Below are positions 26,106 through 46,163 of a stretch of 64,000 nt of DNA, in pieces. The position numbers and the translations under genes were made by a program. Source of the DNA: Chloroflexota bacterium (GTDB taxonomy: Bacteria; Chloroflexota; UBA11872; VXOZ01); the NCBI GenBank assembly GCA_958295775.1, contig CATQHC010000009.1, positions 496,001 to 560,000 on the forward strand, in the 5' to 3' direction. Under the pieces are notes generated by a model. The model was not told the origin of the DNA. It ran no database searches and saw nothing but the letters and a program-made list of their open reading frames with translations. Position 1 is the first letter of the stretch, and each line of letters begins with the position of its first letter.

Positions 26106-27146
26106 TTACTGCTCCACCAAGACACGGCCGCCGCCGTGGGAGCTTTCATACACCGCCTCGCCGAACGTGAGCGACTTGTAGCTATCCCAGAGGTCGGGGC
26201 CGCTGGTTTCCAGGCCTAGGCAGCGCCGCGCGAAGTGGCGCACCTCGCCGGTGTAGCCGTAGTTCATCTGGCTGCGCCCTAGACCGGTCCAGGAGGGGTC
26301 GAGCGTGTAGTTATAGCGGCCGAAGCCCGGCGCTTCTTGCGTCCACTCCTCGCGGGGCTGGTACGTGACCTTCATCATGTCTTCGCACACTACGTGATTT
26401 TCAAACCCAATCAGCTCCAGCGTCTCGATGATGTCGCGGAAAGCTACCTTAGAATCGAGCGTATTAATGTCCATCTGGCCGACCGTGCCGTTCACAAACT
26501 CCAGATTGATGAGATACGAAAAATTCTGCGGTCCCACCTCGTAGTAGAGGGCGTTCACGGCGCGCACGTCCCCGCCAAAGAAGCGCACCAAGTCGAAGAT
26601 GTGCACGCACTGGCCGATGAGGAACGCCCGCTTGGCAGAGTCGATGCCCCATATCTGCGGGTACTTGCCCTGCCCGAACTTGACCTTGAGCACGTGCAGC
26701 CCGCCAAACTCCGGCCGCGCCACAATCTCCTTGGCGATGGTGTACACGTCGGCGAAACGCTTCATGAAGCCCACCTGGCCCCACGTGTTATTTGCCTCTG
26801 CGAGTTCGGCCAGTTCCTTGGCCTCCGCCGAGGTATTGGCCGACGGCTTTTCGGTGTATACCGGCAGACCGCGGTTAAGCACCACCGGCGCCAGCTTGTA
26901 TTGCTGAGGCGCCGGGCCGATGGTAAAGACACCGTCCAGCTCTTCGGTATCGAGCATCTTCTCCATGTCGGTGTAGACGCGCCGCGCGCCAAAATTGCGG
27001 GCATTGCGCTGCGCTTTCTCCTCGTCGAGGTCGCACACAGCGACAAGATCGATCTCAGGAATGAGTTGAATCTGCGGAAAGATCGAGGCGGTGGCAAACG
27101 AACCACAACCGATAAAGGCTAGTCTGGCCCGACGCTCAGTACTCAT
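26106..27146 (-). CDS. Gfo/Idh/MocA family oxidoreductase, tandem copy 1
   Basis: A 346-residue NAD(P)-dependent dehydrogenase. Rossmann motif FIGCGSFATASIFPQ is near the start, VAVCDLDE is at the end of strand two, the EKPSANT motif carries the family's lysine, and GQCVHIFDLVRFFGG is the conserved His region of the C-terminal domain. Such enzymes oxidise sugars, inositols or their derivatives; the substrate is unknown. It is about 88% identical by eye to the next gene (27475-28515), so the pair is a recent tandem duplication. The ATG at 27146 has AAGGAG 11 bases upstream; a GTG four codons earlier overlaps that site and is rejected. A promoter sits about 100 bases upstream. Confidence 0.93.
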   Translation of the reverse strand: MSTERRARLAFIGCGSFATASIFPQIQLIPEIDLVAVCDLDEEKAQRNARNFGARRVYTDMEKMLDTEELDGVFTIGPAPQQYKLAPVVLNRGLPVYTEKPSANTSAEAKELAELAEANNTWGQVGFMKRFADVYTIAKEIVARPEFGGLHVLKVKFGQGKYPQIWGIDSAKRAFLIGQCVHIFDLVRFFGGDVRAVNALYYEVGPQNFSYLINLEFVNGTVGQMDINTLDSKVAFRDIIETLELIGFENHVVCEDMMKVTYQPREEWTQEAPGFGRYNYTLDPSWTGLGRSQMNYGYTGEVRHFARRCLGLETSGPDLWDSYKSLTFGEAVYESSHGGGRVLVEQ

Positions 27147-27243
27147 GGGACAATTCACTCCTTGCGATGGGGGACACGGTGCAAGCGCACTAGTGGGAAG
27201 TTTTCGAGGGCTGCCTCATTGCACCGTCAAGAGTATTACGGCA

Positions 27244-27474: not shown

Positions 27475-28515
27475 CTACTGTTCCACCAGCACCCGGCCGC
27501 CGCCGTGAGAGCTTTTATACACCGCTTCTCCGAACGTGAGCGCTTTGTAGCTGTCCCAGAGGTCGGGGCCGCTGGATTCCAGTCCCAAGCAGCGGCGGGC
27601 GAAATGCTCCACCTCGCCGGTATAGCCGAAGTTGCGCTTGCTGATCGACAGGCCGGTCCACGAGGGCTCCAGAGTGAAGTTGTACCGGCCGAGGCGCGGC
27701 GCTTCTGCCGACCACGCCTCTTGGGGCTGGTACTTGACCTTCATCATGTCTTCGCAAACCACGTGGGTCTCCATGCCGATGAGTTCCAGCGTCTCGATGA
27801 TGTCGCGGGTCCCCACCTTGGAATCGAGCGTATTGATGTCCATGTGGCCGACCGTGCCGTTCACAAACTCCAAGTTGATGAGATAGGAGAAATTCTGCGG
27901 GCCGACCTCGTAGTAGAGTGCGTTCACGGCGCGCACGTCGCCGCCAAAGAAGCGCACCAGGTCGAAGATGTGCACGCACTGGCCGATGAGAAACGCCCGC
28001 TTGGCGGAATCGATGCCCCAGATCTGTGGATACTTGCCCTGCCCGAACTTGACCTTGAGCACGTGCAGGCCGCCGAATTCGGGACGGGCAATGACCTCCT
28101 TGGCAATGCGATAGACGTCGGCGAAGCGCTTCATGAAGCCCACCTGGCCCCATGTGCCGTTCGCCTCGGCCAATTCGGCCAACTCCTTGGCTTCCGCCGA
28201 GGTATTGGCCGACGGCTTCTCCACGTACACCGGCAGACCACGCCTGAGCACCACCGGCGCAAGCCGGTACTGCTGCGGGGCCGGGCCGATGGTGAATACG
28301 CCGTCCAACTCTTCGGTATCGAGCATCTTTTCCATGTCGGTGTAAACGCGCCGCGCGCCGAAGTTGCGGGCGTTGCGCTGCGCTTTGTCTTCGTCGAGGT
28401 CGCACACGGCGACAAGGTCGATCTCGGGGATGAGCTGAATTTGCGGAAAAATCGAAGCCGTGGCAAAAGAGCCACAACCGAGAAAGGCGAGTCTGGCACG
28501 ACGCTCAGAACTCAT
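27475..28515 (-). CDS. Gfo/Idh/MocA family oxidoreductase, tandem copy 2
   Basis: A 346-residue paralogue of the preceding gene with the same motifs (FLGCGSFATAS, VEKPSANT, GQCVHIFDLVRFFGG). The differences cluster in the region about residues 225-295, the C-terminal domain that helps form the substrate pocket in this family, so the two copies may differ in substrate. The ATG at 28515 has AAGGAG 11 bases upstream, as in copy 1. It lies downstream of its own promoter and is read away from the divergent sulfatase gene. Confidence 0.93.
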   Translation of the reverse strand: MSSERRARLAFLGCGSFATASIFPQIQLIPEIDLVAVCDLDEDKAQRNARNFGARRVYTDMEKMLDTEELDGVFTIGPAPQQYRLAPVVLRRGLPVYVEKPSANTSAEAKELAELAEANGTWGQVGFMKRFADVYRIAKEVIARPEFGGLHVLKVKFGQGKYPQIWGIDSAKRAFLIGQCVHIFDLVRFFGGDVRAVNALYYEVGPQNFSYLINLEFVNGTVGHMDINTLDSKVGTRDIIETLELIGMETHVVCEDMMKVKYQPQEAWSAEAPRLGRYNFTLEPSWTGLSISKRNFGYTGEVEHFARRCLGLESSGPDLWDSYKALTFGEAVYKSSHGGGRVLVEQ

Positions 28516-28610
28516 GGAAGATTTCACTCCTTGCATGCTTTCGTGGTGCAGACATTTGCCGATCGGGCTGTCTCTGGCTGCTGGTCCACGCCTAGAAGGG
28601 TATTACGGCA

Positions 28611-34614: not shown

Positions 34615-36006
34615 TTAGCAGATGCAACCGCCCTCTTCCAGGGCAATCGTAGCCACTTGCTGCAGTTCGTCCTGCACTTCCTGGACGGTGCGCGCGCCGT
34701 CCTCGATGTCCTTCCAGCCCTGGCTCCAAGCGCCATTGACCTCAGATTGCTTCACAATCTGCTTGGCGCCCTCGCTGAGCTCCGCCATCTGGGCGTAGAC
34801 ATTGGCATCCTCATAGGGCCACAGAGTCACCGGGCTCTGCTTGCGGCTGGCCGTGTAGCGGCGGCCGCCGAGCTGAGCAATCTGCTGGTCGGACTCCGGA
34901 CCAATGAGAATCTTATAGAGTTCCCAGGCCAGATCCGCTTGTGGCGCCGATGAACTCAGATAGTTCGCGTTCAACGCCTGAATGGTGGTGCGTCCGCCGG
35001 GACCCTCGGGCAGCAGCGTGTGCCCAATGTTGAAGGGAGTATCCTTGGACATGATGTTCGCTTGGAAGCTGCGCGTATTGGCGCCGCTTGCCAGGCGCGC
35101 AGAGAGGGTCTCCTCTTCAAAGGACGCCGAAGCGTCATTCTCACGCGGCGTGCTGATACGGGGTGAGACCTCGTGCTTCGTGACCAGGTCCTGCGCGGCC
35201 TGCACGGCAGCCGCGAATTCCGGCGTAGTCATCGTCGCTGCGGTGATGTCGGCGTTCCACCAGTCCGCGCCCCAGGCCTTGAGATGATGCCCAAACCAGC
35301 CGGTGGAGTGGTAGGCATAGAAGAAGCCCCAGCGCGTGGTGTTCGCGCCTTCCTTCTTGGTAAGTTTCTGCGCAAACTCAAGCGCAGCGTCCCACGTCCA
35401 TTTGCCGTCCGCCGCCAGCTCGGCAGGCGACGTCAGACCGGCCTCGGTGACCTGGTCCGCGTTGTACCAGAACTCCTTGCCCTGGTTGAACCAGGCAATG
35501 CCGTAGATCTGGCCCTGGATCTTCTCCAGCGCGTGATCGTAAAAGTCATCGCGGGACACGTCGCCGTCTTTGGCGATGAACGGGTCCAGCGGCTGGATCA
35601 TCTCGTTCTGCGCGAATTGGCTGATATAGGAGAAGTGGCCGTAGTACATGTCAATCGGCACGTTACCCGCAAACGAACTCACGGCCTTCTCGATGAGTAC
35701 CGCAAAACCGCCGGTTACCGGGTCTACCTCAAGTTCCACTTCGGGGAACTGTGCCCGATAGTTATCGAAGATCTGGCCGAAGTTATCCTCCCACACCTCC
35801 TGTGTGGTGGTGTAGTGGAGGTAACGGACCGTCTTCGGCTCCATAGCCTTGGTTTCCTCAGCCGGTTTGGCCTCTGCCTCTGCCGCCGGGGCCTCGCCCT
35901 CCGCCGGCATAGTAGTTACGGCCTGCCCGCACGCGGCCGCCAGCAAGCCTGCGCCAGCCACCAAGCTGCCGCCAAGCAATGTTCGTCGCGTCACTGTCGC
36001 TCTCAC
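34615..36006 (-). CDS. Tat-exported extracellular solute-binding lipoprotein 1
   Basis: A 463-residue ABC-type solute-binding protein. From a GTG at 36006, preceded by GGAGGA at 7 bases, it starts MRATVTRRTLLGG (twin arginine) and has the lipobox LLAAAC with Cys26 to be lipidated. A Glu/Ala-rich linker (about 30-50) precedes the family-1 binding fold (FDNYRAQFPEVELEVDPVTG, QGKEFWYNADQVTEAG, GKWTWDAALEFAQKL). Upstream ATGs in the same frame lack ribosome-binding sites. Its last residues are EEGGCIC, matched by GGCLC in the paralogue at 42839-44233. Substrate probably a sugar by family and context, not shown. No permease or ATPase gene is beside it. Confidence 0.88.
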   Translation of the reverse strand: MRATVTRRTLLGGSLVAGAGLLAAACGQAVTTMPAEGEAPAAEAEAKPAEETKAMEPKTVRYLHYTTTQEVWEDNFGQIFDNYRAQFPEVELEVDPVTGGFAVLIEKAVSSFAGNVPIDMYYGHFSYISQFAQNEMIQPLDPFIAKDGDVSRDDFYDHALEKIQGQIYGIAWFNQGKEFWYNADQVTEAGLTSPAELAADGKWTWDAALEFAQKLTKKEGANTTRWGFFYAYHSTGWFGHHLKAWGADWWNADITAATMTTPEFAAAVQAAQDLVTKHEVSPRISTPRENDASASFEEETLSARLASGANTRSFQANIMSKDTPFNIGHTLLPEGPGGRTTIQALNANYLSSSAPQADLAWELYKILIGPESDQQIAQLGGRRYTASRKQSPVTLWPYEDANVYAQMAELSEGAKQIVKQSEVNGAWSQGWKDIEDGARTVQEVQDELQQVATIALEEGGCIC

Positions 36007-36422
36007 GTTCTCTTCCTCCGGGTACATAAAGCTAAAATCTTCACCGTTCATAGTACGCACACCATGTAGATGGTGCGCTCTCGGGCACGTGCGCTGCCGT
36101 CTCGCCCTTTAAAGAAACCGCCAATTCTCCTTTCTCAATTCATCCAATACGCGCCGTAGCGCGAAACGCCGTCATTGCACAACCAATTGCCCGTACAGGT
36201 TGAAATGTCGCTGAAAGTAGTATACCAGCGTGACAACCATTAGCAAGCCGACTGTCACTTTGACCTCGTGCAATCGCTCGCAATAGAGACTATTCGGTGA
36301 CTGCCTCCTACATCTCCCTATGCTCCTGCGCAGCAGCGGCACGGTTCATCTTTGCCGCCACATCCCTTGCCCACAATTGCTCCAATCTTGATTACTTTGC
36401 TGGGAGAGCCGGAATTTCGGTT
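36007..36422. other. Intergenic stretch with the promoter of solute-binding protein 1
   Basis: Contains the promoter at 36219-36246 and otherwise nothing recognisable. The implied leader before the GTG is about 200 bases; I could not assign it to a known riboswitch. Confidence 0.45.
36219..36246 (-). promoter_or_regulatory. Promoter of solute-binding protein 1 (TTGCTA-16-TATACT, extended -10)
   Basis: Minus strand: TTGCTA (36246-36241), a 16-base spacer ending TGG, then TATACT (36224-36219). The TG before the -10 hexamer strengthens the call. Confidence 0.55.
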
Positions 36423-37631
36423 TCATTCACGCCAGGTTGGTTCGCCGCTGGCGATGGCGATGCCCTCGGCTGCCGCATAGAGGTAGCGCTCGGCCCAGGC
36501 TGTGGTGGCTTGCAGATCGTAGTTCCACGACTGCACGGCGTAGAACATGCAGTGGGAGTGGAGCCTGGCGAGGTTGGGCGTGAAGAACGCCGCCGGTTTC
36601 CACCACAGGCCGATGGGGCGGTGGTCGTTGTGGTCGCCCAGCCGCTGGCGCATGACCGCATTGAAGCGGTCGACATATTCGGGATCAGTATCCGGCGGAT
36701 AGATATCCGCCATGCCGGGATTGAGCAAGTGCAGCTTGCGCACGCCCAGGTGATCTTCCTCTCCCGGGGGAATCGTGCGGTAGTGGGCATGAAACTCCAG
36801 ATAGGCCTGAGTTGGGGCCAACCCAACGTAGTCGGCCAAGGCCTTGCTCTCCACCGGGCACGGCTCGCCGGACACCGCCGCCTTGTAGCCCCCGGCCACC
36901 ACCTCGCCGCTGCCGTTGAGCAAACTGTGTCCCTCCGCCGCGCCGTCGGGATTGATCATCGGCACCAGGCAGACCTGGTAGTTGCCCAGCAGCCAGCGCG
37001 AATCCGTGAGATCGACCGTGAGCCGCCGCGCCAACTCCACCAGACGCTCCGCCACCGGCTCCGCGCCCTGGGACGTGCCCGCCACCACGATGCGCTTGTC
37101 CCGGGGCGCAGTCTCCAGCGCCCAAATCTTCCGCCCCCTGCCCGTCTCGCCCAGCACGCGCGTCGACCAGACGTGACTTTCCGTGCGCATGAGCGCGTCA
37201 AGCTGCGTCTCCAACTCTGAAGGAGCGATGAACGGCATACTGCCCAGGACGACGGATTCTCCCGCCTGCAGCGAGAGGGTGATGAGCACGTCGCTGGTGT
37301 CCGGCACGTTCGTGGCGTGCTCCAGCGGAATCGGCTCCCAGCCCGCGGCGCGCTTGACAAAGCCGCCAAATTGGATATACCAGCCGCCCAATTCCCTATC
37401 TGTGTGGACGTGGATGCGCAGGGCAGGCGTCTCCCGCTGCGCCGTGACGCGCACGCTGTAGCGATACTGTGTCGGCACGCCTTTGAAGTGTTCGTCGAAG
37501 CCCGTGGGCTTGGGGTCTACCCGCGTAGCGAGATGAACGGTGCCGTCATCGTCCAACGACACGTCTTCCGCCGCGGCCGCCTCGAATTCCGTGTCGAAAG
37601 TCACGCCAATCTCGTCAATCGTCTTTCTCAC
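36423..37631 (-). CDS. M14 peptidase-like protein lacking catalytic residues
   Basis: A 402-residue relative of M14 carboxypeptidases: VVAGTSQGAEPVAERLVELA, VCLVPMINPDGAAEGHSLLN and YLEFHAHYRTIPPG follow the family order. The first zinc motif, HxxE in active members, reads QGAE, so the zinc-binding His is Gln. The position of the catalytic Glu (FYEIN in the paralogue at 9013-10164) reads FYAVQ. It is therefore probably not a zinc peptidase as such, though another metal or chemistry is possible. The N-terminal part (about 1-150) is beta-rich. The GTG at 37631 has GAGGAG 8 bases upstream. It lies between a solute-binding protein and a polysaccharide deacetylase. Confidence 0.78.
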   Translation of the reverse strand: MRKTIDEIGVTFDTEFEAAAAEDVSLDDDGTVHLATRVDPKPTGFDEHFKGVPTQYRYSVRVTAQRETPALRIHVHTDRELGGWYIQFGGFVKRAAGWEPIPLEHATNVPDTSDVLITLSLQAGESVVLGSMPFIAPSELETQLDALMRTESHVWSTRVLGETGRGRKIWALETAPRDKRIVVAGTSQGAEPVAERLVELARRLTVDLTDSRWLLGNYQVCLVPMINPDGAAEGHSLLNGSGEVVAGGYKAAVSGEPCPVESKALADYVGLAPTQAYLEFHAHYRTIPPGEEDHLGVRKLHLLNPGMADIYPPDTDPEYVDRFNAVMRQRLGDHNDHRPIGLWWKPAAFFTPNLARLHSHCMFYAVQSWNYDLQATTAWAERYLYAAAEGIAIASGEPTWRE

Positions 37632-37733
37632 AGGGCAATCTCCTCAGAATTACGTGCGAATAGTCCTATGGTTCTGTCTCTGCCGTGGGCCGTACACTCA
37701 CTGTGGAATGAGCCATTTGGTAAGAGTATGGCA

Positions 37734-37761
37734 CGTAGGGGCACGACATGTCGTGCCCCTT
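37734..37761. repeat. Dispersed palindrome, family D (GGGGCACGACATGTCGTGCCCC)
   Basis: AGGGGCACGACATGTCGTGC plus CCCT is a perfect 24-base inverted repeat. An identical core occurs at 42758-42782. This copy sits in the gap between the M14-like gene and the deacetylase gene. Confidence 0.85.
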
Positions 37762-37858
37762 CACCTTTGCGCACCTGGCAGAAGCAGGCACTCCTCACTC
37801 AATTTCCATCTCCGAAAGGTGTAACCTCACGCCGCCCGATTAGGATGCGCTTGACACC

Positions 37859-37885
37859 GGCGCGGGGGACAAGCCCCCGCGCTAC
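37859..37885. repeat. Dispersed palindrome, family B, inverted copy
   Basis: GCGCGGGGGACAAGCCCCCG then CGCTAC: the reverse complement of the copies at 18011 and 25978. Confidence 0.8.
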
Positions 37886-37934
37886 AATGGTCTTTCGAAT
37901 GGAGTATGCTGCACTTCCGGCCAGAATTCGGCAT

Positions 37935-38852
37935 CTATGCGACATTTGGCACGACATGTTCGCAAACCTCATCGTTCGTGGCGACCCAGCAACCGCCGGG
38001 CTTTGCCAGGGCATAGGGCAAGACCGTTTCTAGCACGTCGCAATGGGGGTCTCTGGCGGCCAAAACCGGCGGATGAAAGGTCATGGTCAACACCTGCCCC
38101 CTGTCATGGGCGTGGTCGATGCCGTGTTTGAGCACATCGATAAACTCCCAGCGGTCAAGGTCCAAGTAACGGAAGCCCCAGATATCGGTGATGCCCGTGG
38201 GCGGGAGCTCGGGCAGACCATTGGGATAGCGGTAAGGTTGCAATGAATCGAGACTCTCCCGCATGGCCGATTCCAAGCGCCCTTGCGGCGGCCGCTTCTG
38301 CGTGGGATCTACCGGAAAGCGGTAGTGTGATGACGCGTAGCCAAACCCTTCATCTTTCAACAGCTCTTGAACGGCGGGCACGGCGTGCAGACCGTCCACA
38401 AACCCACCCGGCGTGCGGAAGCCAACGGGATCTACGCCGAGCGTCTCGCGCATGGCGCTGCTGGTCTGGCGCAACTCATCGCGGATGCACGTGAGCGCAG
38501 AACGGCCGTGCGCCCGCCAGGGGGCCGCCGCGTAGGTCACTTGAAGCTGCGGGATCTCTTGCGCCCGCACGTTGACGTGGCTGTAGGTGTGGTTGCCGAG
38601 CGCGTGTCCCGCGTCCACGGCTTCTCTCAAGTAATCGAGGTCGGGGTCCTCAAGCGCACTTCCTACCAGGAAGTAATGCAGCTTGACCCCGTACTTCGCG
38701 GCCACCGCGTTCAGCTTTTGAATGTACTGCTTGCTGTCCGCATCGATGGCGCCTTTGCGCTGGTCCCATACCGACGTCCAGTACGGAAAGTTGGTGCACA
38801 TCTCTACGTCGAACGTCAGGCTCAGACAGAACTGTGCGCCGTTCGGATACAT
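37935..38852 (-). CDS. Polysaccharide deacetylase (NodB homology) family protein
   Basis: A 305-residue NodB-fold hydrolase that removes acetyl or formyl groups from sugars or related amides. Catalytic Asp15 is in LTFDVEM, metal-binding His88 and His92 in GNHTYSH, FRTPGGF gives motif 3, and TFHPP near the end supplies the later histidine. There is no signal peptide, so it is probably cytoplasmic; some members of this subgroup act on allantoin-like or peptidoglycan substrates. The ATG at 38852 has AAGGAG 9 bases upstream and is preferred to the start seven codons earlier. Substrate unknown. Confidence 0.88.
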   Translation of the reverse strand: MYPNGAQFCLSLTFDVEMCTNFPYWTSVWDQRKGAIDADSKQYIQKLNAVAAKYGVKLHYFLVGSALEDPDLDYLREAVDAGHALGNHTYSHVNVRAQEIPQLQVTYAAAPWRAHGRSALTCIRDELRQTSSAMRETLGVDPVGFRTPGGFVDGLHAVPAVQELLKDEGFGYASSHYRFPVDPTQKRPPQGRLESAMRESLDSLQPYRYPNGLPELPPTGITDIWGFRYLDLDRWEFIDVLKHGIDHAHDRGQVLTMTFHPPVLAARDPHCDVLETVLPYALAKPGGCWVATNDEVCEHVVPNVA

Positions 38853-39024
38853 GTTTGCTTTCTCCTTACGCACGTAGAACTAGCGACTCCCAGCGGCGAC
38901 GAAATCTACACCAACCCAGCGGCTGCGCTCAACTTTACTCTCAGCTACAACAATTGCACAAACCAAGTGCCCATACCGCGTTATCCCTCACAAAAGCCGC
39001 TGCAATGCCGATCTTGCGCAGGGG

Positions 39025-39846
39025 TCAGCGGGCCTTCTTCACTGCTACCACAACCGCGAAGATCACTGTAGCCACCAGCGCCATCGAAGGCCCGGACGGC
39101 AAGTTGTAATGGTAGGAAAGGTAAAGCCCGGACACAGCCGAGATCAATCCCAAGAGCGACCCGGTAAACATCGCTTTGGGAAAGTTGCGCACCAGCAGGA
39201 ACGACGTGGCCGCCGGCGTGATGAGCATTGCCAGCACGAGCACAATCCCCACTGCTTGAATGGCAAGCACAATCACTATTGCCAATAGGGCTAGAAGAAG
39301 ATAGTCCAACGCTTGCGTGGGCAAGCCGATGACGGTAGCGCCCGCCGGGTCGAAGCTGGCGAAGACCAGTTCTTTATGGAGCAGGTAGAGGACCGCCAAT
39401 ACCAGGGCGGCCAGTACCAGCGTCAAGAGCACGTCCTGGGTGGTTACGCCGAGCACCTGGCCGAGCAGAATGTCTTCCAGGCTCACGCGCAGTCCCCGGG
39501 TGAAAGACAACATGACCACGCCCAGGGCAAAGAGCCCCGCGAAGAGTATGCCTACGGAGGTATCGGCGCTGATACCGGCGCGCCGAATGAGGTAGCCGCT
39601 GAGCAGCGCCACCACGATACCCATGGGCATTGCGCCCAAGAACGGATTGACGCCAATCACGAACGCCGCCACCATACCGGGCAACACGGCGTGGGAGAGC
39701 GCGTCGCCCATGAAGCCCAAGCCTTTGGTGACCACATAGGCGCCCAGCATGGGGCACATCACCCCCACCAGCACCGAAACGATCAGCGCCCGCAGCATGA
39801 AGCCGTACTGAAAAGGAGCAATGAAGATGTCGGCAAGGACATCCAT
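39025..39846 (-). CDS. znuB: Zinc/manganese ABC transporter, permease
   Basis: A 273-residue membrane protein of the ABC-3 (ZnuB/TroC/MntB) family with about eight hydrophobic segments. It carries GLGFMGDALSHAVLPGM and GISADTSVGILFAGLFALG, typical of metal permeases. Together with the ATPase and binding protein upstream it forms a complete importer; the metal is inferred as zinc from the His-rich binding protein. The start directly follows the ATPase stop codon, so the genes are translationally coupled. It is the last gene of a three-gene leftward operon. Confidence 0.93.
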   Translation of the reverse strand: MDVLADIFIAPFQYGFMLRALIVSVLVGVMCPMLGAYVVTKGLGFMGDALSHAVLPGMVAAFVIGVNPFLGAMPMGIVVALLSGYLIRRAGISADTSVGILFAGLFALGVVMLSFTRGLRVSLEDILLGQVLGVTTQDVLLTLVLAALVLAVLYLLHKELVFASFDPAGATVIGLPTQALDYLLLALLAIVIVLAIQAVGIVLVLAMLITPAATSFLLVRNFPKAMFTGSLLGLISAVSGLYLSYHYNLPSGPSMALVATVIFAVVVAVKKAR

Positions 39847-40635
39847 CTAGCGCTGCTCGCTCTCGTAGGCCCGGTAGATGTCCACCGAGCGGTACAGCTC
39901 GTCCATGACTTCCGGTACCAGCACCTCCGACGTGAGCCCACAGGCGATGACGCTGCGGTTGAGGCAGAGGCAATCATCGGTCAACCGCCGGATGTAGCTG
40001 ATGTTGTGCGAAGCGAGGAGGATGGTCTTCCCCCCGTCGCGCATCTCCTGCAGCACCAGGGTCATGACCTCTTGGGAGGTGAAGTCTACTCCCCGAAAGG
40101 CTTCATCCAGAATCAACACCTGCACATCCTGCGCCAGGGCGCGGGCCACGAAGACCCGTTGCTGCTGCCCGCCGGAGAGTTCCGCAATCAGCGCGTCGCG
40201 CCTGTCCCACATCCAAACTTGGTTGAGGGCGTCCTCCACGGCTTGCTTGTCGGCGCTCCCCGGCCGGCGAATCCACCCGATCTGCCGCGTTCGGCCCAGC
40301 ATCACCATGTCCCACACCGTCATGGGCAGGTCCCAGTTGATATTCTGGCGCTGCGGCACGAACGCAACCTGCCCCCGCGACTCACCAATCGACTTACCAT
40401 TTATGCGCACGCGGCCGTCTCTGGCCGGGATGAGCCCGGTGAGCGTATTGAAGAGCGTGCTCTTGCCGGCGCCATTGGGTCCAATGACGCCCATGATGCG
40501 AGAACTGTTCGCGGAGAAGGTGACACCGTTGAGCACCTGGACCTCGCCGCGATCCACGAAGAGGTCTTCCACGGCGAGTGACGGCGAGGCCGCGTCGCTA
40601 GACTGCTCCTGCGCGCCGTCAGCGGCCACGTTCAT
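39847..40635 (-). CDS. znuC: Zinc/manganese ABC transporter, ATP-binding protein
   Basis: A 262-residue ABC ATPase: Walker A GPNGAGKSTLF, Q-loop FVPQRQNINWDLP, signature LSGGQQQRVFVARAL, and Walker B VLILDEAFRGVD. The D-loop carries Phe-Arg-Gly-Val-Asp. It energises metal uptake with the permease at 39025-39846. Its ATG overlaps the stop of the binding-protein gene (ATGA), and it ends flush against the permease start. Confidence 0.94.
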   Translation of the reverse strand: MNVAADGAQEQSSDAASPSLAVEDLFVDRGEVQVLNGVTFSANSSRIMGVIGPNGAGKSTLFNTLTGLIPARDGRVRINGKSIGESRGQVAFVPQRQNINWDLPMTVWDMVMLGRTRQIGWIRRPGSADKQAVEDALNQVWMWDRRDALIAELSGGQQQRVFVARALAQDVQVLILDEAFRGVDFTSQEVMTLVLQEMRDGGKTILLASHNISYIRRLTDDCLCLNRSVIACGLTSEVLVPEVMDELYRSVDIYRAYESEQR

Positions 40636-41777
40636 CGCAACGCCTCGACGACGAGCCGGACGTTGGACTGCACCATCGTGATGTAGGTATCCGCTCCGCT
40701 GCCCTCGGGTCCGAGCGAATCCGAGTAGAGCCGCACGAGCGTTGCGCCGGCCTCATTCGCCAGGGCGCTTGCGAGGCGCTCCCGCGCAATCTTCTCGCCG
40801 AACACTGCCTGCACGTCACGCTCTCTCATCAGATCGACGAGATGCGCCAGGTGCTCGGCTGACGGTTCGGCGTCTTCGGCAATCGACAGAATTATCCCCA
40901 CAACCTCGAAGTCATAGCGCACCGCGAAGTAGCGGTAATAGTCGTGGGAGCCGAGGATCAATCGCTTTTCGATCGGCACCGCGCTGACCTGCTCCACCGT
41001 CCACGCGTGGAGCGCCAGGACTTCCGCGTTGTAGGCGGCGGCATTGGCCCGGTATTCGTCCGCATTATCCGGATCGAGTTCCGCGAAGCGGGCGGCAATC
41101 GCGTCGATCGCGACCACAACGCGCAGCGGGTCGAACCAGAAGTGGGGGTTATGCGCCCCGTGGTCGTGCCCGTGTTCGGCTTCTTCGTCGTCCTCATGGC
41201 CGTTCTCATCTTCGTCGTGGCCTTCATCCTCGTCGTCCTCATGGCCGTTCTCGTCTTCGTCGTGGCCTTCATCCTCGTCGTCCTCATGGCCATTCTCGTC
41301 TTCGTCGTGGCCATCTTCTTCGTCTTCAGCGTGGCCGCCCTCATCCTCCGTATCGTCCAGGATGGGATCGACGAGTTCACCCAACGTCAGCACAATCGAC
41401 GAATCCCGCGCCACATTGCGCAAGAGCTCTTCAAGCCAGAAGCCCTCCATGCCCAATCCGATGGCAATGATCAAGTCGGCTTCTGCGATTTTGGCCGCGT
41501 CGCGGGGTCCGGGTTGGAATCCGTGCGGGTCCACGTCGGTTGGAATGAGGCTAGACACTTCCACGCGGTCGCCGCCGACTGCCGTGGCCCAGTCCGCAAG
41601 GACATTCGTGACGGCAATGACACGAATCGCCGGCGCCTCAGAGGGCGCGGGCTCAGCGCTTGGCTCGTCGCCTCCGCACGCGGCAACAGTTACGAGCACA
41701 AGTGTCACGAACGCCGTCCACAGACTTTGCCGCAGACGGCGGAACTGGGCCATGCTCCTGCCGAAAACTCGTCTCAT
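40632..41777 (-). CDS. znuA: Zinc ABC transporter, metal-binding lipoprotein with His/Asp/Glu repeat
   Basis: A 381-residue cluster A-I binding protein (ZnuA/TroA type). A hydrophobic signal and lipobox LVTVAAC are followed by DVDPHGFQPGPRD with the first metal-binding His. The second is in GAHNPHFWFDP, the third in LILGSHDYYRYF and the acidic ligand near the C-terminus. Between the first two lies an acidic, His-rich loop of about 75 residues made of three copies of a 15-residue unit (GHDEDENGHEDDEDE), longer than in most ZnuA proteins. Such loops are thought to collect or sense zinc. It is the first gene of the operon. The ATG at 41777 has GAGG 10 bases upstream. I saw no confident Zur box. 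Confidence 0.93.
   Translation of the reverse strand: MRRVFGRSMAQFRRLRQSLWTAFVTLVLVTVAACGGDEPSAEPAPSEAPAIRVIAVTNVLADWATAVGGDRVEVSSLIPTDVDPHGFQPGPRDAAKIAEADLIIAIGLGMEGFWLEELLRNVARDSSIVLTLGELVDPILDDTEDEGGHAEDEEDGHDEDENGHEDDEDEGHDEDENGHEDDEDEGHDEDENGHEDDEEAEHGHDHGAHNPHFWFDPLRVVVAIDAIAARFAELDPDNADEYRANAAAYNAEVLALHAWTVEQVSAVPIEKRLILGSHDYYRYFAVRYDFEVVGIILSIAEDAEPSAEHLAHLVDLMRERDVQAVFGEKIARERLASALANEAGATLVRLYSDSLGPEGSGADTYITMVQSNVRLVVEALR
41185..41319. repeat. 45-bp tandem repeat (three units) in znuA
   Basis: Units start at 41185, 41230 and 41275, each beginning TCGTCGTCCTCATGGCC and ending in TTCATCC or CATCTTC. The first two differ by a single base as read; the third has decayed at its end. The repeat encodes the 15-residue His/Asp/Glu unit of ZnuA. 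Confidence 0.92.
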
Positions 41778-41861
41778 TTTCCTGAAACCTCTTTGTTTCT
41801 ATGCAACACACCTGCCGTTTGGGATAAAAGCCTCATGCCAGCGCGCCTAACTCAACCGAAG

Positions 41862-42680
41862 CTAGCGTTGCGTCGCCGCGACCTCCTGGCAGGCCTCGAT
41901 GAACTGATCGTACCCGATCGTGTCCCCCACTGCCTGTTGAAAGTACTTTAGCGCCGAACGAGTCATGAGCCGTTCAGGGAACGTATCCGGGTACTCCACC
42001 GCCAGCGTGGCTTCGCGGATGAGAAAGACTTTGTACCCGTAACCGAGCATGGGTTGGGTAGCGCCGGCGGAGCCCAAGATGCACATATTCGTCGCGAATC
42101 CCGAATAGATGAGGTTCTTGATGCCCTTGCTCCGGCAAATGCGGTCGAACTGGGCGCTGGTGAGAATTACCTGGTCGCCGGGCTCGGCATCACACGACTG
42201 AATGATGCGCAACTGTTGCCAGCCCTCCCAGTCCTGGTAGCCGGCGCCGTGGGAGCGTTCCGCGCGCTCCAGGTTCCAACCCGGATTGGCTTCCGGGGGA
42301 CGCGCCGGGCCGGGCGGCGGGGTCGTATCTTCTTCTTCCAGCATGTAGTGGACCGAGTCGTACTTCATGGCAATATTCCCCGGCTCCACGTGGAAGATCT
42401 GCATGCCGGCATCGCGAGCGGCTGCGATTGCCGGGCGAATATAATTGTCGGCAATCCGCACCGACTCCAGTTGGCCCTCGGTCGTACCCATGTCCACAAA
42501 GTAGTCTGCCGGTACCGCGGGCCCGTTCACGTCGCCCACATTCCACAGATGGAGAGCCACGAATCCGGTCTCCGCCGGATCGAGGTCGAATGCTTCTTCG
42601 ACCCAGCCTGCATCCCGTGCGTTCGGCGTAGACCAGTGCGTGCCCAGAATACGCAAAGCTACCTTAGTCTCAGTTGCCAC
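41862..42680 (-). CDS. Isochorismatase-like cysteine hydrolase fold protein, catalytic residues altered
   Basis: A 272-residue protein with the isochorismatase fold: FVALHLWNVGD near the start, then AAARDAGMQIFHVEP, and SGFATNMCILGSAGATQPML carrying the nucleophile-type Cys. Active members use Asp, Lys and Cys. Here the region normally ending in the catalytic Asp (the DMQND strand) reads LHLWN, and the strand that usually carries the Lys reads VILTSAQF, so Asp and Lys appear absent. It may be inactive or use other residues. An insert with a Pro-rich stretch (about 105-120) is also unusual. It stands alone upstream of the zinc operon. Function not assigned. Confidence 0.7.
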   Translation of the reverse strand: MATETKVALRILGTHWSTPNARDAGWVEEAFDLDPAETGFVALHLWNVGDVNGPAVPADYFVDMGTTEGQLESVRIADNYIRPAIAAARDAGMQIFHVEPGNIAMKYDSVHYMLEEEDTTPPPGPARPPEANPGWNLERAERSHGAGYQDWEGWQQLRIIQSCDAEPGDQVILTSAQFDRICRSKGIKNLIYSGFATNMCILGSAGATQPMLGYGYKVFLIREATLAVEYPDTFPERLMTRSALKYFQQAVGDTIGYDQFIEACQEVAATQR

Positions 42681-42754
42681 AGTACTCTTCCCTCCGCGTT
42701 ACTAACGGCGCAGCAATAGAAAGCCTCAACTCACATGCCGTGTCCATAGTACAA

Positions 42755-42784
42755 CGTAGGGGCACGACATGTCGTGCCCCTACG
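42755..42784. repeat. Dispersed palindrome, family D
   Basis: ACGTAGGGGCACGACATGTC and the matching right arm; longer inverted repeat than the copy at 37734-37761. It lies between the isochorismatase-like gene and solute-binding protein gene 2. Confidence 0.85.
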
Positions 42785-42838
42785 TCCGTCAATCCTCAAT
42801 TGCCATAGCCGCCGATTAGGAATCAGCAACCAAGAAAG

Positions 42839-44233
42839 CTAGCAGAGGCAGCCGCCCTCGCGGAGCGCGTTCTCGGCAACCCTTTGCATCTCTTCCTGGA
42901 CCTCTTGGACCGTCTTGGTTTCCAGCTCCAAGGCTTCCCAGTTTTCGGTCCACGCAGCGTTGACGTCAGACTGCTTCACCACCTGGCGCTGTTCCACGCT
43001 GATCTCGGCAGAGCGCGCGTAGACTTCCGGATCCTCATAGTCGTAGACCGTGAAGCCCTGGAAGTTCTTGTTCGACACGTAGCGTCCGCCGCCCAGCGGC
43101 ACGATGAAGCTCTGACCTTCCTGGCTCAGCCAGAATTTGTAGAAGTCCCACGCGCCATCGGGATTCTCAGAAGAGCTGGAGATCCAGTTCGCGTTGATGG
43201 ACTGCACGATCTGGCGTCCCGCCGGACCATTCGGCAGCATTTCCATCTCTACCGTGAACGGTTCCTCCTGGGACATGATCTGCTCTTCGATTGTACGCGT
43301 GCCGTACGATCCCCAGGTGCGGCCCGCCAGCAATTGCGTGTTGAAGTCCGCTGCCACGTCGTTTTCACTTGGGGCGGCCCGACTCGGCATGACGCGGTGC
43401 TTCGTCACCAAGTCAGCGGCAAACTGTGTACCTTCGGCAAACTCTTGCGAGAGCATAGACGGCGCCGAAAAGTCTTCATTCCACCACGTTGCGCCATACG
43501 CCATCAGGTGGATCCAGTGCCAACCAAATGAGTAGGAGGGCGTCCAGAAGCCCCACTGCGTCACATTATTGCCCTCTACCGTGGTCAGTTTCTTCGCGCC
43601 TTCCAGCAACGCATCCCAGGTCCACGTGCCCTCGGCTTCATGCTCCTTGGGAGTCTTGAGACCGGCCTCGGCGTAGAGATCGGCGTTGTACCAATACTCT
43701 TTGCCGTTCGTGAACCAAGCAATGCTGTACACCTGGCCTTCGATACGCTCAGTCGCCCAGACGTGGTAGTCGTCCTTGCTGACCTCAGCGTCTGCCGACA
43801 AGAACGGCTCCAGCGACTGGATCATTTCTGCAGTGGCAAACTGGCTGATGTAAGAAAAGTGGCCGTAGTACACGTCGTAGGAGATGCCTCCGGCAAACGA
43901 CGCTAAGGCCTTATCAATCGTCTCCGCGAAACAGCAGACTGTTGGATCGACCTCCAGGTTGTACTCCGGATATCGCTCGCCAAAGGCTTCAAAGAACGCG
44001 CCGAATGACTCGTCCCACACTGCTTGATTTGTAGTTACGTGCATGTACTTGACCAGCTTCTGCTCGGCAGGCGCGGGCACATCGGTAGTTTTCTCTTCTT
44101 GAGGCGCATCAGCCGATGCAGGCGCATCGCCAGCGGGCGCAGTTGCCACCTGGCCGCAAGCGGCGAGCAACAGCCCGGTACCGGCTACCGCACTGCCGCC
44201 AAGGAACGTACGTCGTGTCAAATCTTTACGCAT
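42839..44233 (-). CDS. Tat-exported extracellular solute-binding lipoprotein 2
   Basis: A 464-residue paralogue of the protein at 34615-36006. From the ATG at 44233 (AGGAG at 8 bases) it begins MRKDLTRRTFLGG with a twin arginine and lipobox LLLAAC (Cys26). The binding-protein fold follows: GERYPEYNLEVDPTVCCF, YYGHFSYISQFATAEMIQ, NGKEYWYNADLYAEAG, EGTWTWDALLEGAKKL. The shared YYGHFSYISQFA and TWTWD segments with copy 1 show common descent. It ends REGGCLC, like copy 1. No permease gene is adjacent, so it must use a transporter encoded elsewhere. Sugar binding is inferred from family. Confidence 0.9.
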   Translation of the reverse strand: MRKDLTRRTFLGGSAVAGTGLLLAACGQVATAPAGDAPASADAPQEEKTTDVPAPAEQKLVKYMHVTTNQAVWDESFGAFFEAFGERYPEYNLEVDPTVCCFAETIDKALASFAGGISYDVYYGHFSYISQFATAEMIQSLEPFLSADAEVSKDDYHVWATERIEGQVYSIAWFTNGKEYWYNADLYAEAGLKTPKEHEAEGTWTWDALLEGAKKLTTVEGNNVTQWGFWTPSYSFGWHWIHLMAYGATWWNEDFSAPSMLSQEFAEGTQFAADLVTKHRVMPSRAAPSENDVAADFNTQLLAGRTWGSYGTRTIEEQIMSQEEPFTVEMEMLPNGPAGRQIVQSINANWISSSSENPDGAWDFYKFWLSQEGQSFIVPLGGGRYVSNKNFQGFTVYDYEDPEVYARSAEISVEQRQVVKQSDVNAAWTENWEALELETKTVQEVQEEMQRVAENALREGGCLC

Positions 44234-44723: not shown

Positions 44724-46163
44724 ATGCTCGAGAGTACGTCTCTATCCCGACGTCGCCTACTAGCGGGATCGGCCATGCTGGGGGCAACGTCTATAGTGTT
44801 CGCCGCCTGCGGCAGCGGAGCTGCGCCTGCCGATACCGGCACGATGGAGGACGCTCCGGATGAACCGGAAGCAAAGGAAGCGGCGCCTGCAATGGAAGGC
44901 GAGAGCGTCAATATCGTCGCATACCTTAAGGTGCCGACAGAGCTCGAACTGGACTTTATGCAGAACATGGCCGATCCGTACATCGCCGAGAACCCGGGCA
45001 CGACGGTCGAGCTCGTTTCTCAAGTGGGCGGCACGGCCGACCGCGTGGCCAAGATCAAGACCATGCAAGCCGGTGGCATCCCGCCTGACCTCTCCGAGTT
45101 TCCGCGCCGCGCCTTTGCGCAGGTGATGCAGGACCTCGCAGAGAACATGGACGATCTCGTCAGGGCGGCGCAACTCGACCTGAGCGTCTACAACCCCAAC
45201 CTCCTGGAGCGCGACGCCATGTTCCAAGGGCAAATCTATTTGCTGCCCATGGGTCATGGTGGTAACGCCCACGTGGTCATGATCAACCCCACGTACTTCG
45301 AAGCGGCCGGCCTTGAGTATCCATCGGCTGACGTCAATGACTCGTGGACATGGGACGAGTGGCTTGAGGTCATGGTCCAACTGCGAGAATTCAGTGGTGA
45401 AGAGGTTAGTCAGTGGGCAATTGGCAACCACGCTCACGACTGGGGTTCTTGGAACCTGCTGTGGAAAACGGACTGGATATCCGATGACCTCACCACGGCT
45501 ACCTGTGATGCACCGGAGATGATCGACTGCTTCACACGGTTCTTTGATTTGGTGCACAAGCATCAAGTGCTGCCGCCTCAGGCAGACCGCAATGCAGCGT
45601 ACTTCGGCGGACAGAATCCGTTCCTGACCGGCCAAGTACCACTCATGATCTCCGCGCCGCGCAGCTTGCCGCTCACGTATGCAGACCAGGCACTCGAGGC
45701 AGGGGTAGACTTTGTCATGGCCCCCATGCCGAGAGTGGAAATTTCTACGGCAGACGCCAATCAGCACAAGCTTGGTATCGTCTATGGCAGCCAACAGCGT
45801 GAAGCCACGTTTAACTACATGACCTGGCTCCTTCACGAAGGCCGTTTAGGCAAGTTCGTCCGCCGTATTCCGGCTTGGATTCCTGAGATTGAGCCATTCA
45901 TAGAAGATGCGTTCCAAGGATATAGCAACCCGCGCCTTTCTGTGGCATCAGACGCGCTCGCGACGGCCGTGCCGCAGTACAACGTAGGCACTCTGCCGAC
46001 GGGCGATCAGATTCTTACACTGCTCAATGACATCGGCGACCAGCAGCTCTGGACCGGCAACCAGGACGCCGCGACGTTCCTCAAGGAAATCCAGCCGACC
46101 GTTCAGGCAATTGTCGACGACGGTCTGGCTATTATCCGCGAGAAGGTCGGTTCCTGGCCGTAA
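44724..46163 (+). CDS. Tat-exported extracellular solute-binding lipoprotein 3
   Basis: A 479-residue family-1 solute-binding protein. The ATG has AAGGAGG 7 bases upstream. The start MLESTSLSRRRLLAGSAM has a twin arginine and lipobox VFAAC (Cys29). A Glu/Asp-rich linker leads to FMQNMADPYIAENPGTTVEL, IKTMQAGGIPPDLSEFPRR and DSWTWDEWLEVMVQL. It ends KVGSWP, without the Cys-rich tail of copies 1 and 2, and is only distantly related to them. A strong terminator follows, so it is probably transcribed alone. No permease genes adjoin. Confidence 0.9.
   Translation: MLESTSLSRRRLLAGSAMLGATSIVFAACGSGAAPADTGTMEDAPDEPEAKEAAPAMEGESVNIVAYLKVPTELELDFMQNMADPYIAENPGTTVELVSQVGGTADRVAKIKTMQAGGIPPDLSEFPRRAFAQVMQDLAENMDDLVRAAQLDLSVYNPNLLERDAMFQGQIYLLPMGHGGNAHVVMINPTYFEAAGLEYPSADVNDSWTWDEWLEVMVQLREFSGEEVSQWAIGNHAHDWGSWNLLWKTDWISDDLTTATCDAPEMIDCFTRFFDLVHKHQVLPPQADRNAAYFGGQNPFLTGQVPLMISAPRSLPLTYADQALEAGVDFVMAPMPRVEISTADANQHKLGIVYGSQQREATFNYMTWLLHEGRLGKFVRRIPAWIPEIEPFIEDAFQGYSNPRLSVASDALATAVPQYNVGTLPTGDQILTLLNDIGDQQLWTGNQDAATFLKEIQPTVQAIVDDGLAIIREKVGSWP

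Follow-up and report, generated by a model that had tools for sequence, protein, structure and literature searches.

A conserved C-terminal cysteine tail, possibly disulfide-forming, on solute-binding proteins of one Chloroflexota genus

We identified a family of family-1 solute-binding proteins (SBPs) in a genus of Chloroflexota whose members all end in a cysteine-bearing tail and fall into two clades with different cysteines. On the sequences, the conserved feature that the members share is GGC[ILV]x, and the terminal Cys-x-Cys (CxC) is one of two solutions. Building on four observations, namely family membership, tail conservation, cysteine co-distribution and fold, we tentatively interpret the tail as a selected, disulfide-forming C-terminal appendage on lipoprotein-like SBPs, with a hairpin-tail bond in one clade and a CxC bond in the other; we give this reading a little less than an even chance. 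The novelty is modest, a fresh variant inside a well-known protein family.

The tail family in the window and in the genus

The window (the whole analysed stretch of 64,000 nucleotides, positions 496001-560000 of contig 9 in a genome of 3.42 Mb and 9 contigs) encodes two of these proteins on the minus strand. Solute-binding protein A (P0001; 34615-36006, 463 aa, TAA stop) ends in EEGGCIC and solute-binding protein B (P0002; 42839-44233, 464 aa, TAG stop) ends in REGGCLC. Translation and a DNA pattern place the tail codons with their stops at 34615-34632 (GGCIC, TAA) and 42839-42856 (GGCLC, TAG), both on the minus strand. The two proteins are 51% identical, and the earlier note had described them correctly as paralogues with these two endings. 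Both match SBP_bac_1 (PF01547) above the curated cut-off of 26 bits, with 65.4 bits for A (1.1e-17) and 60.8 bits for B (2.9e-16). The N-termini, read by eye and with a simple pattern, are TRRT...LAAACG in A and TRRT...LLAACG in B, which we take to be a twin-arginine stretch followed by a hydrophobic stretch and a lipobox-like Cys. Both proteins are presumably exported and Tat-type lipoprotein-like.

With P0001 as query, we found 69 matches in its own genome at E<=0.001, eight of which (P0001 included) are near full-length, reaching residue 462 or 463. The seven other full-length paralogues are 35-51% identical to P0001, and all eight members end in [GR]GC[IL]x. Five other genomes of the genus have 6 to 9 family matches each at E<=1e-60; the six genus genomes compared are also the whole sample of the taxonomic family. 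In a 400-genome sample of the phylum, matches at E<=1e-50 occurred in 7 genomes, namely the six of the genus and one outside it (G295), whose protein ends in LLKSS without the tail. Since this search scored the four best candidates per genome, and a wider contig scan rested on a single peptide pattern, distant relatives may be missed by either. The contigs hit in that scan are labelled as Chloroflexi/Chloroflexota MAGs, and their isolate names hint at sponges or similar hosts as a conceivable origin. The relatives search also showed that the C-terminal Cys is absent from three relatives in other genera (G010, G012, G014). Three of these four outside relatives are free of cysteine beyond the lipobox; the fourth carries just one, at a distance of 235 residues from its end and in a different context.

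The family is represented here by 37 distinct rows, with one row kept for each distinct stretch of the last 150 residues and with truncation at a contig end or a fragment length below 370 aa as grounds for leaving a chain out; four left-out fragments that retain a C-terminus (in L047, L098, L100 and L132) also have the tail Cys. The third residue from the end (Cys -3) is Cys in 37/37 rows, is preceded by Gly in every one and is always followed by L, I or V, and all 37 tails read [GR]GC. Nineteen rows finish with Cys, whereas the final residue of the other 18 is R, Q, W or G. The tail codons vary synonymously, with TGC in 30 rows and TGT in 7 at Cys -3, and GGC in 29, GGT in 7 and GGA in one at Gly -4. 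The earlier note had proposed that the tail is kept by selection, and this is supported by Cys -3 in all 37 rows and, within its clade, by the final Cys (Cys -1) in 19 of 19. Its wish to see the C-termini of homologues was answered by a Cys -3 that is universal in the 37 rows, a conservation not due to chance. A late frameshift as the origin of the last cysteines is refuted, because the reading frame runs unbroken into the tail and all 6 genomes preserve it. Its description of a terminal Cys-x-Cys as the shared feature survives in part: Cys -3 is shared, and the final Cys is confined to one clade.

That the tail is a functionless passive relic of common ancestry is scarcely credible. Its occurrence in a single genus fits such a relic, but paralogues down to 34% identity with P0001 retain the G-C and a partner Cys even though the tail positions around them differ and the codons show synonymous changes.

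A DNA pattern for GGCxC followed by a stop gave 33 matches in the 6 genomes, compared with 17 for the reversed control pattern. Thirty of the 33 were inspected; 22 are ends of the tail family and 8 are not, and the longest open frame ending at any of these eight is 98 aa and ends in GGC, not GGCxC. One of the three other matches is the gene for P0002. We rejected the idea that GGCxC is a general C-terminal tag of the genus, as the 30 inspected matches include the end of no long gene outside the tail family. A tail-family copy with an in-frame TAG was also observed (L047 / L050, on contig 59 of G004), which could mean either a pseudogene or a mistake in the assembly.

Two sister clades, the predicted fold and candidate cysteine pairs

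A tree built without the tail separated the CxC rows from the single-Cys rows as two sister clades (SH-aLRT 99 and 97). Cys -1 is present in 19/19 rows of the CxC clade, to which both window proteins belong, and in 0/18 of the single-Cys clade, which ends in GC[ILV][QRWG]. The reverse distribution was found for a second position: a Cys that precedes the C-terminus by 198-199 residues, in the context W-[ND]-x-x-[C] of a predicted hairpin, occurs in all 18 single-Cys rows and in none of the 19 CxC rows. Inside the tail family this co-distribution amounts to a single split of the tree and therefore counts once statistically. CxC as the conserved unit was rejected, because only Cys -3 is common to all rows.

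The two clades also differ in their remaining cysteines. In the CxC clade the tail pair and the lipobox Cys are the sole cysteines in 16/19 rows, one of which (L097) is N-terminally incomplete, and an internal Cys-Cys is present in 3/19. One such Cys-Cys lies at residues 100-101 of P0002; it is found in 3/5 orthologues of this protein. In the single-Cys clade the hairpin Cys and the tail Cys are the only two in 5/18 rows; one extra Cys occurs at three columns near the hairpin, in 5, 8 and 1 of the 18 rows. In either subfamily described here, rows that hold three cysteines permit another pairing, between the hairpin Cys and a Cys 14 to 17 residues away.

AlphaFold models of mature P0001 and of a sister protein (L040) were confident across the protein body, with mean pLDDT values of 84.1 and 86.3, and both are predicted to adopt the maltose-binding-protein fold, most closely resembling oligosaccharide-binding proteins. 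Among the 50 fold matches listed for L040, Z ranged from 37.5 to 31.7 over 354-379 residues at 11-21% identity, and the Foldseek matches of P0001 reached E values down to 8.6e-26. The nearest solved structures are family-1 SBPs (PF01547), namely Lmo0181 (5f7v), AbnE (6rjy), GacH (3jzj/3k01), 7bvt and TMBP (1eu8), and in the models the tail proteins share this fold across nearly the whole chain. E. coli MalE stops in its last helix, whereas the tail proteins add GGCxC or GGCxX. The hairpin Cys aligns directly after the YENGKYD turn of E. coli MalE, and from this alignment the hairpin is predicted to lie in the C-terminal lobe; the available portions of two papers (PMC5256280, PMC4771870) state nothing on how near this turn is to the C-terminus of MalE. 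The tail itself was modelled at low confidence, with last-block pLDDT values of 57 and 69 in the two models. The secondary-structure strings of the models assign it an isolated bridge residue, at -2 in L040 and at -3 in P0001.

These patterns suggest how the tail might work. In the single-Cys clade, Cys -3 would pair with the hairpin Cys and thereby staple the chain end to the body of the protein. In the clade of the window proteins, the hairpin Cys is gone and the last residue would take over as partner, so that the tail could close on itself as a Cys-x-Cys disulfide. A closed CxC is suggested because in most chains of this clade the last residue is the only internal partner. In both clades the tail thiols would become oxidised after export. 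Oxidation has slender support, in that the own genome encodes a DsbB-type protein (PF02600, 3.1e-12; L228:1441-2064, minus strand) in which CTLC is accompanied by another pair of cysteines, but models for VKOR, DsbA and Thioredoxin_4 had no match anywhere in this genome. A CxC disulfide is strained, which speaks against the closed tail.

The same CxC rows could be read differently, with a reactive extracellular CxC that forms an intermolecular disulfide (in a dimer, with a surface protein or with a host thiol) and an internal staple in the sister clade only. We consider this unlikely, though worth weighing: 16 of the 19 CxC rows have no internal Cys other than the lipobox one, the Gly-Gly ahead of it hints that the end is flexible, confidence in the model is low over the final residues, and all eight members in the own genome are remote from any PF00528 permease gene, which makes a non-importer role possible. 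Set against this, there is no candidate partner, and two cysteines exceed the need of one cross-link. A related proposal, to which we assign a small chance, is that the CxC tail serves as a surface handle for thiol-disulfide exchange (in covalent arrays, or with host or matrix thiols) on proteins that have lost the importer role, with the sister-clade tail as a structural staple.

We regard a C-terminal Cys that is lipidated or prenylated as a second anchor as very improbable. CxC endings are prenylated in eukaryotic Rab proteins, which is in its favour. But lipobox-like signals are already present at the N-terminus, the sister proteins end in one Cys plus two residues, unlike CaaX, and we know of no bacterial enzyme for lipidation or prenylation of a C-terminal Cys. 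CaaX prenylation in particular was rejected: the CaaX rule places the Cys fourth from the C-terminus, and in 37/37 rows only two residues follow the conserved Cys.

Among known CxC pairs, Erv2 has a C-terminal CGC shuttle. The tail resembles this CGC, and the CPC of Mia40, in being a CxC pair able to form a disulfide; Mia40 and Erv2 are oxidoreductases, and the likeness drawn here concerns the CxC pair. The sections available of a study on Mia40 indicate that a CxC such as its CPC is able to be redox-active (PMC4019985). Among titles and abstract openings of the open-licence literature on a C-terminal cysteine or a disulfide at the C-terminal helix in binding proteins, we found none that deals with this tail.

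A second cysteine-paired subfamily

We surveyed the C-termini of the 72 PF01547 matches in the own genome and found six more proteins with a Cys in the last 10 residues, all from one other subfamily (L162, L164, L166, L167, L172 and L173). In a class search of 41 genomes, this second subfamily had matches at E<=1e-90 in the same genus only. Weak matches (5e-37 to 3e-35) were found outside it in three genomes of other families, and these three relatives have neither the hairpin nor the C-terminal Cys.

The subfamily is represented by 44 rows with at least 250 bits and at least 300 aa, collapsed where identical over the last 200 residues. Across 6 genomes, 43/44 rows combine a hairpin-region Cys (in C-x-L) with a Cys that lies 4 to 31 residues before the chain end; the exception is a 395-residue remnant (L163). 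Exactly those two cysteines are present in 26/44 rows. In a profile alignment, the hairpin Cys of the second subfamily falls 4 residues after that of the tail family. By our reading of the alignment, its C-terminal Cys probably sits within the last helix and that of the tail family beyond it. Two partial matches in the own genome resemble broken remnants of this subfamily (C2:649232-650460 and C9:596507-596797); the latter lies between two full-length copies and contains an in-frame TAA.

The nearest relatives of both families outside the genus lack the C-terminal Cys and the hairpin Cys at 7/7 loci, and six of these loci have no Cys whatever after the signal region. The absence of both cysteines from all seven indicates that the hairpin Cys and the C-terminal Cys appear together. 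A conserved C-terminal Cys comes with a partner in two distantly related subfamilies, which favours a disulfide.

The wider set of SBPs was scored in the same genome (70 proteins, the 72 minus two without the RR-lipobox pattern). In fifteen, at least one of the last 35 residues is Cys; 11 of the fifteen also have a hairpin-region Cys, here defined by position as 160-235 residues from the end and not by structure, and the remaining four are the CxC proteins. A lone C-terminal Cys was found in 0/70. Of the 55 SBPs without a C-terminal Cys, 10 have a hairpin-region Cys. Exactly one Cys after the lipobox was present in 21/70, suggesting that free thiols are tolerated.

A tree of 66 of the 72 own-genome SBPs shows two origins of the C-terminal Cys and 9 changes in total at the hairpin-region Cys. 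In random pairings on this tree, the hairpin-region Cys changed alike in a mean of 1.8 of 2 pairs and never in the opposite direction; with only two origins of the C-terminal Cys, significance is out of reach. The tree and the alignments suggest two separate origins of the staple. If the pairing is true, the binding proteins of one lineage have twice gained a staple that joins the same two regions, and one clade has since swapped it for a terminal CxC, which makes this a natural experiment, on a small scale, in stabilising exported Chloroflexota proteins.

Gene neighbourhood and comparison with known systems

Between SBP A and SBP B, the minus strand of the window encodes an M14-type zinc carboxypeptidase-like protein (36423-37631; PF00246, 5.6e-07), a polysaccharide deacetylase-like protein (37935-38873; PF01522, 5.7e-14), the ZnuB, ZnuC and ZnuA zinc uptake proteins (39025-41777; PF00950, PF00005 and PF01297) and an isochorismatase-type hydrolase (41862-42680; PF00857, 3.2e-07). 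A divergent SBP without the tail, ending in KVGSWP, follows on the plus strand (44724-46163; PF01547, 4.2e-18). All of these genes are syntenic: the order divergent SBP, SBP B, isochorismatase type, ZnuABC, deacetylase, M14 and SBP A is kept in 4/4 other genomes compared (G001 to G004), with the order in G004 pieced from two stretches of one contig and G005 outside the comparison. Additional DNA separates the M14 gene from SBP A in G003 and G004, and a Gfo/Idh gene comes next after SBP A in all four.

This neighbourhood bears on the proposal that the two tail thiolates bind a metal ion (Zn or Cu), which we judge rather improbable. In its favour, ZnuABC and genes for zinc-enzyme-like proteins lie between the two window genes in an order kept in four other genomes, and CxC is a common thiolate pair. 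Nevertheless, a gene order shared by close relatives says little, the six other own-genome paralogues are far from this ZnuABC, 18/37 rows have a single tail Cys, and the last 12 columns hold no conserved His or Asp. Of the three guesses in the earlier note, a disulfide is the one now favoured, by paired cysteines in two subfamilies, whereas metal binding has found little support and lipid anchoring is unlikely. As a separate observation, ZnuA (40632-41777, minus strand) contains a tandem repeat rich in His, Asp and Glu (GHDEDENGHEDDEDE-like). The aligned piece of ZnuA that passed the filter in four other genomes covers 172/381 residues only.

Unlike the nearest known family-1 SBPs, the tail proteins have no permease gene nearby. 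No PF00528 match comes closer than about 27 kb to any of the eight members in the own genome (27,594 from the midpoint of the SBP domain to the start of the permease, in the nearest case). Genome-wide, the 72 PF01547 matches (71 above the curated cut-off) compare with 16 PF00528 permease-domain matches, and only 5/72 SBPs have such a match at a distance of 6 kb or less. The genome holds an orphan binding-protein expansion, and a distant permease could serve the tail-family members.

Orphan binding-protein expansions are described for the tripartite tricarboxylate transporter in Bordetella and in Rhodoplanes (434 genes), in the parts of that report available (PMC5994714). As far as those parts go, these expansions and the genome studied here are alike in having many binding proteins and few membrane components (PMC5994714). 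The tripartite tricarboxylate system is another transporter class, whereas the proteins described here are of the ABC family-1 type. The main text, as one part of PMC5994714, uses 'cysteine' 0 times and 'disulfide' 0 times and describes no cysteine tail, and open-licence titles and abstract openings on orphan or expanded binding proteins of Chloroflexi hold nothing on the tail. With dozens of family-1 SBPs lacking adjacent permeases, the tails could help to test the role of orphan binding proteins.

Elsewhere in the window, two neighbouring and very similar oxidoreductase genes were observed on the minus strand (26106-27158 and 27475-28536), which we take to be Gfo/Idh-like.
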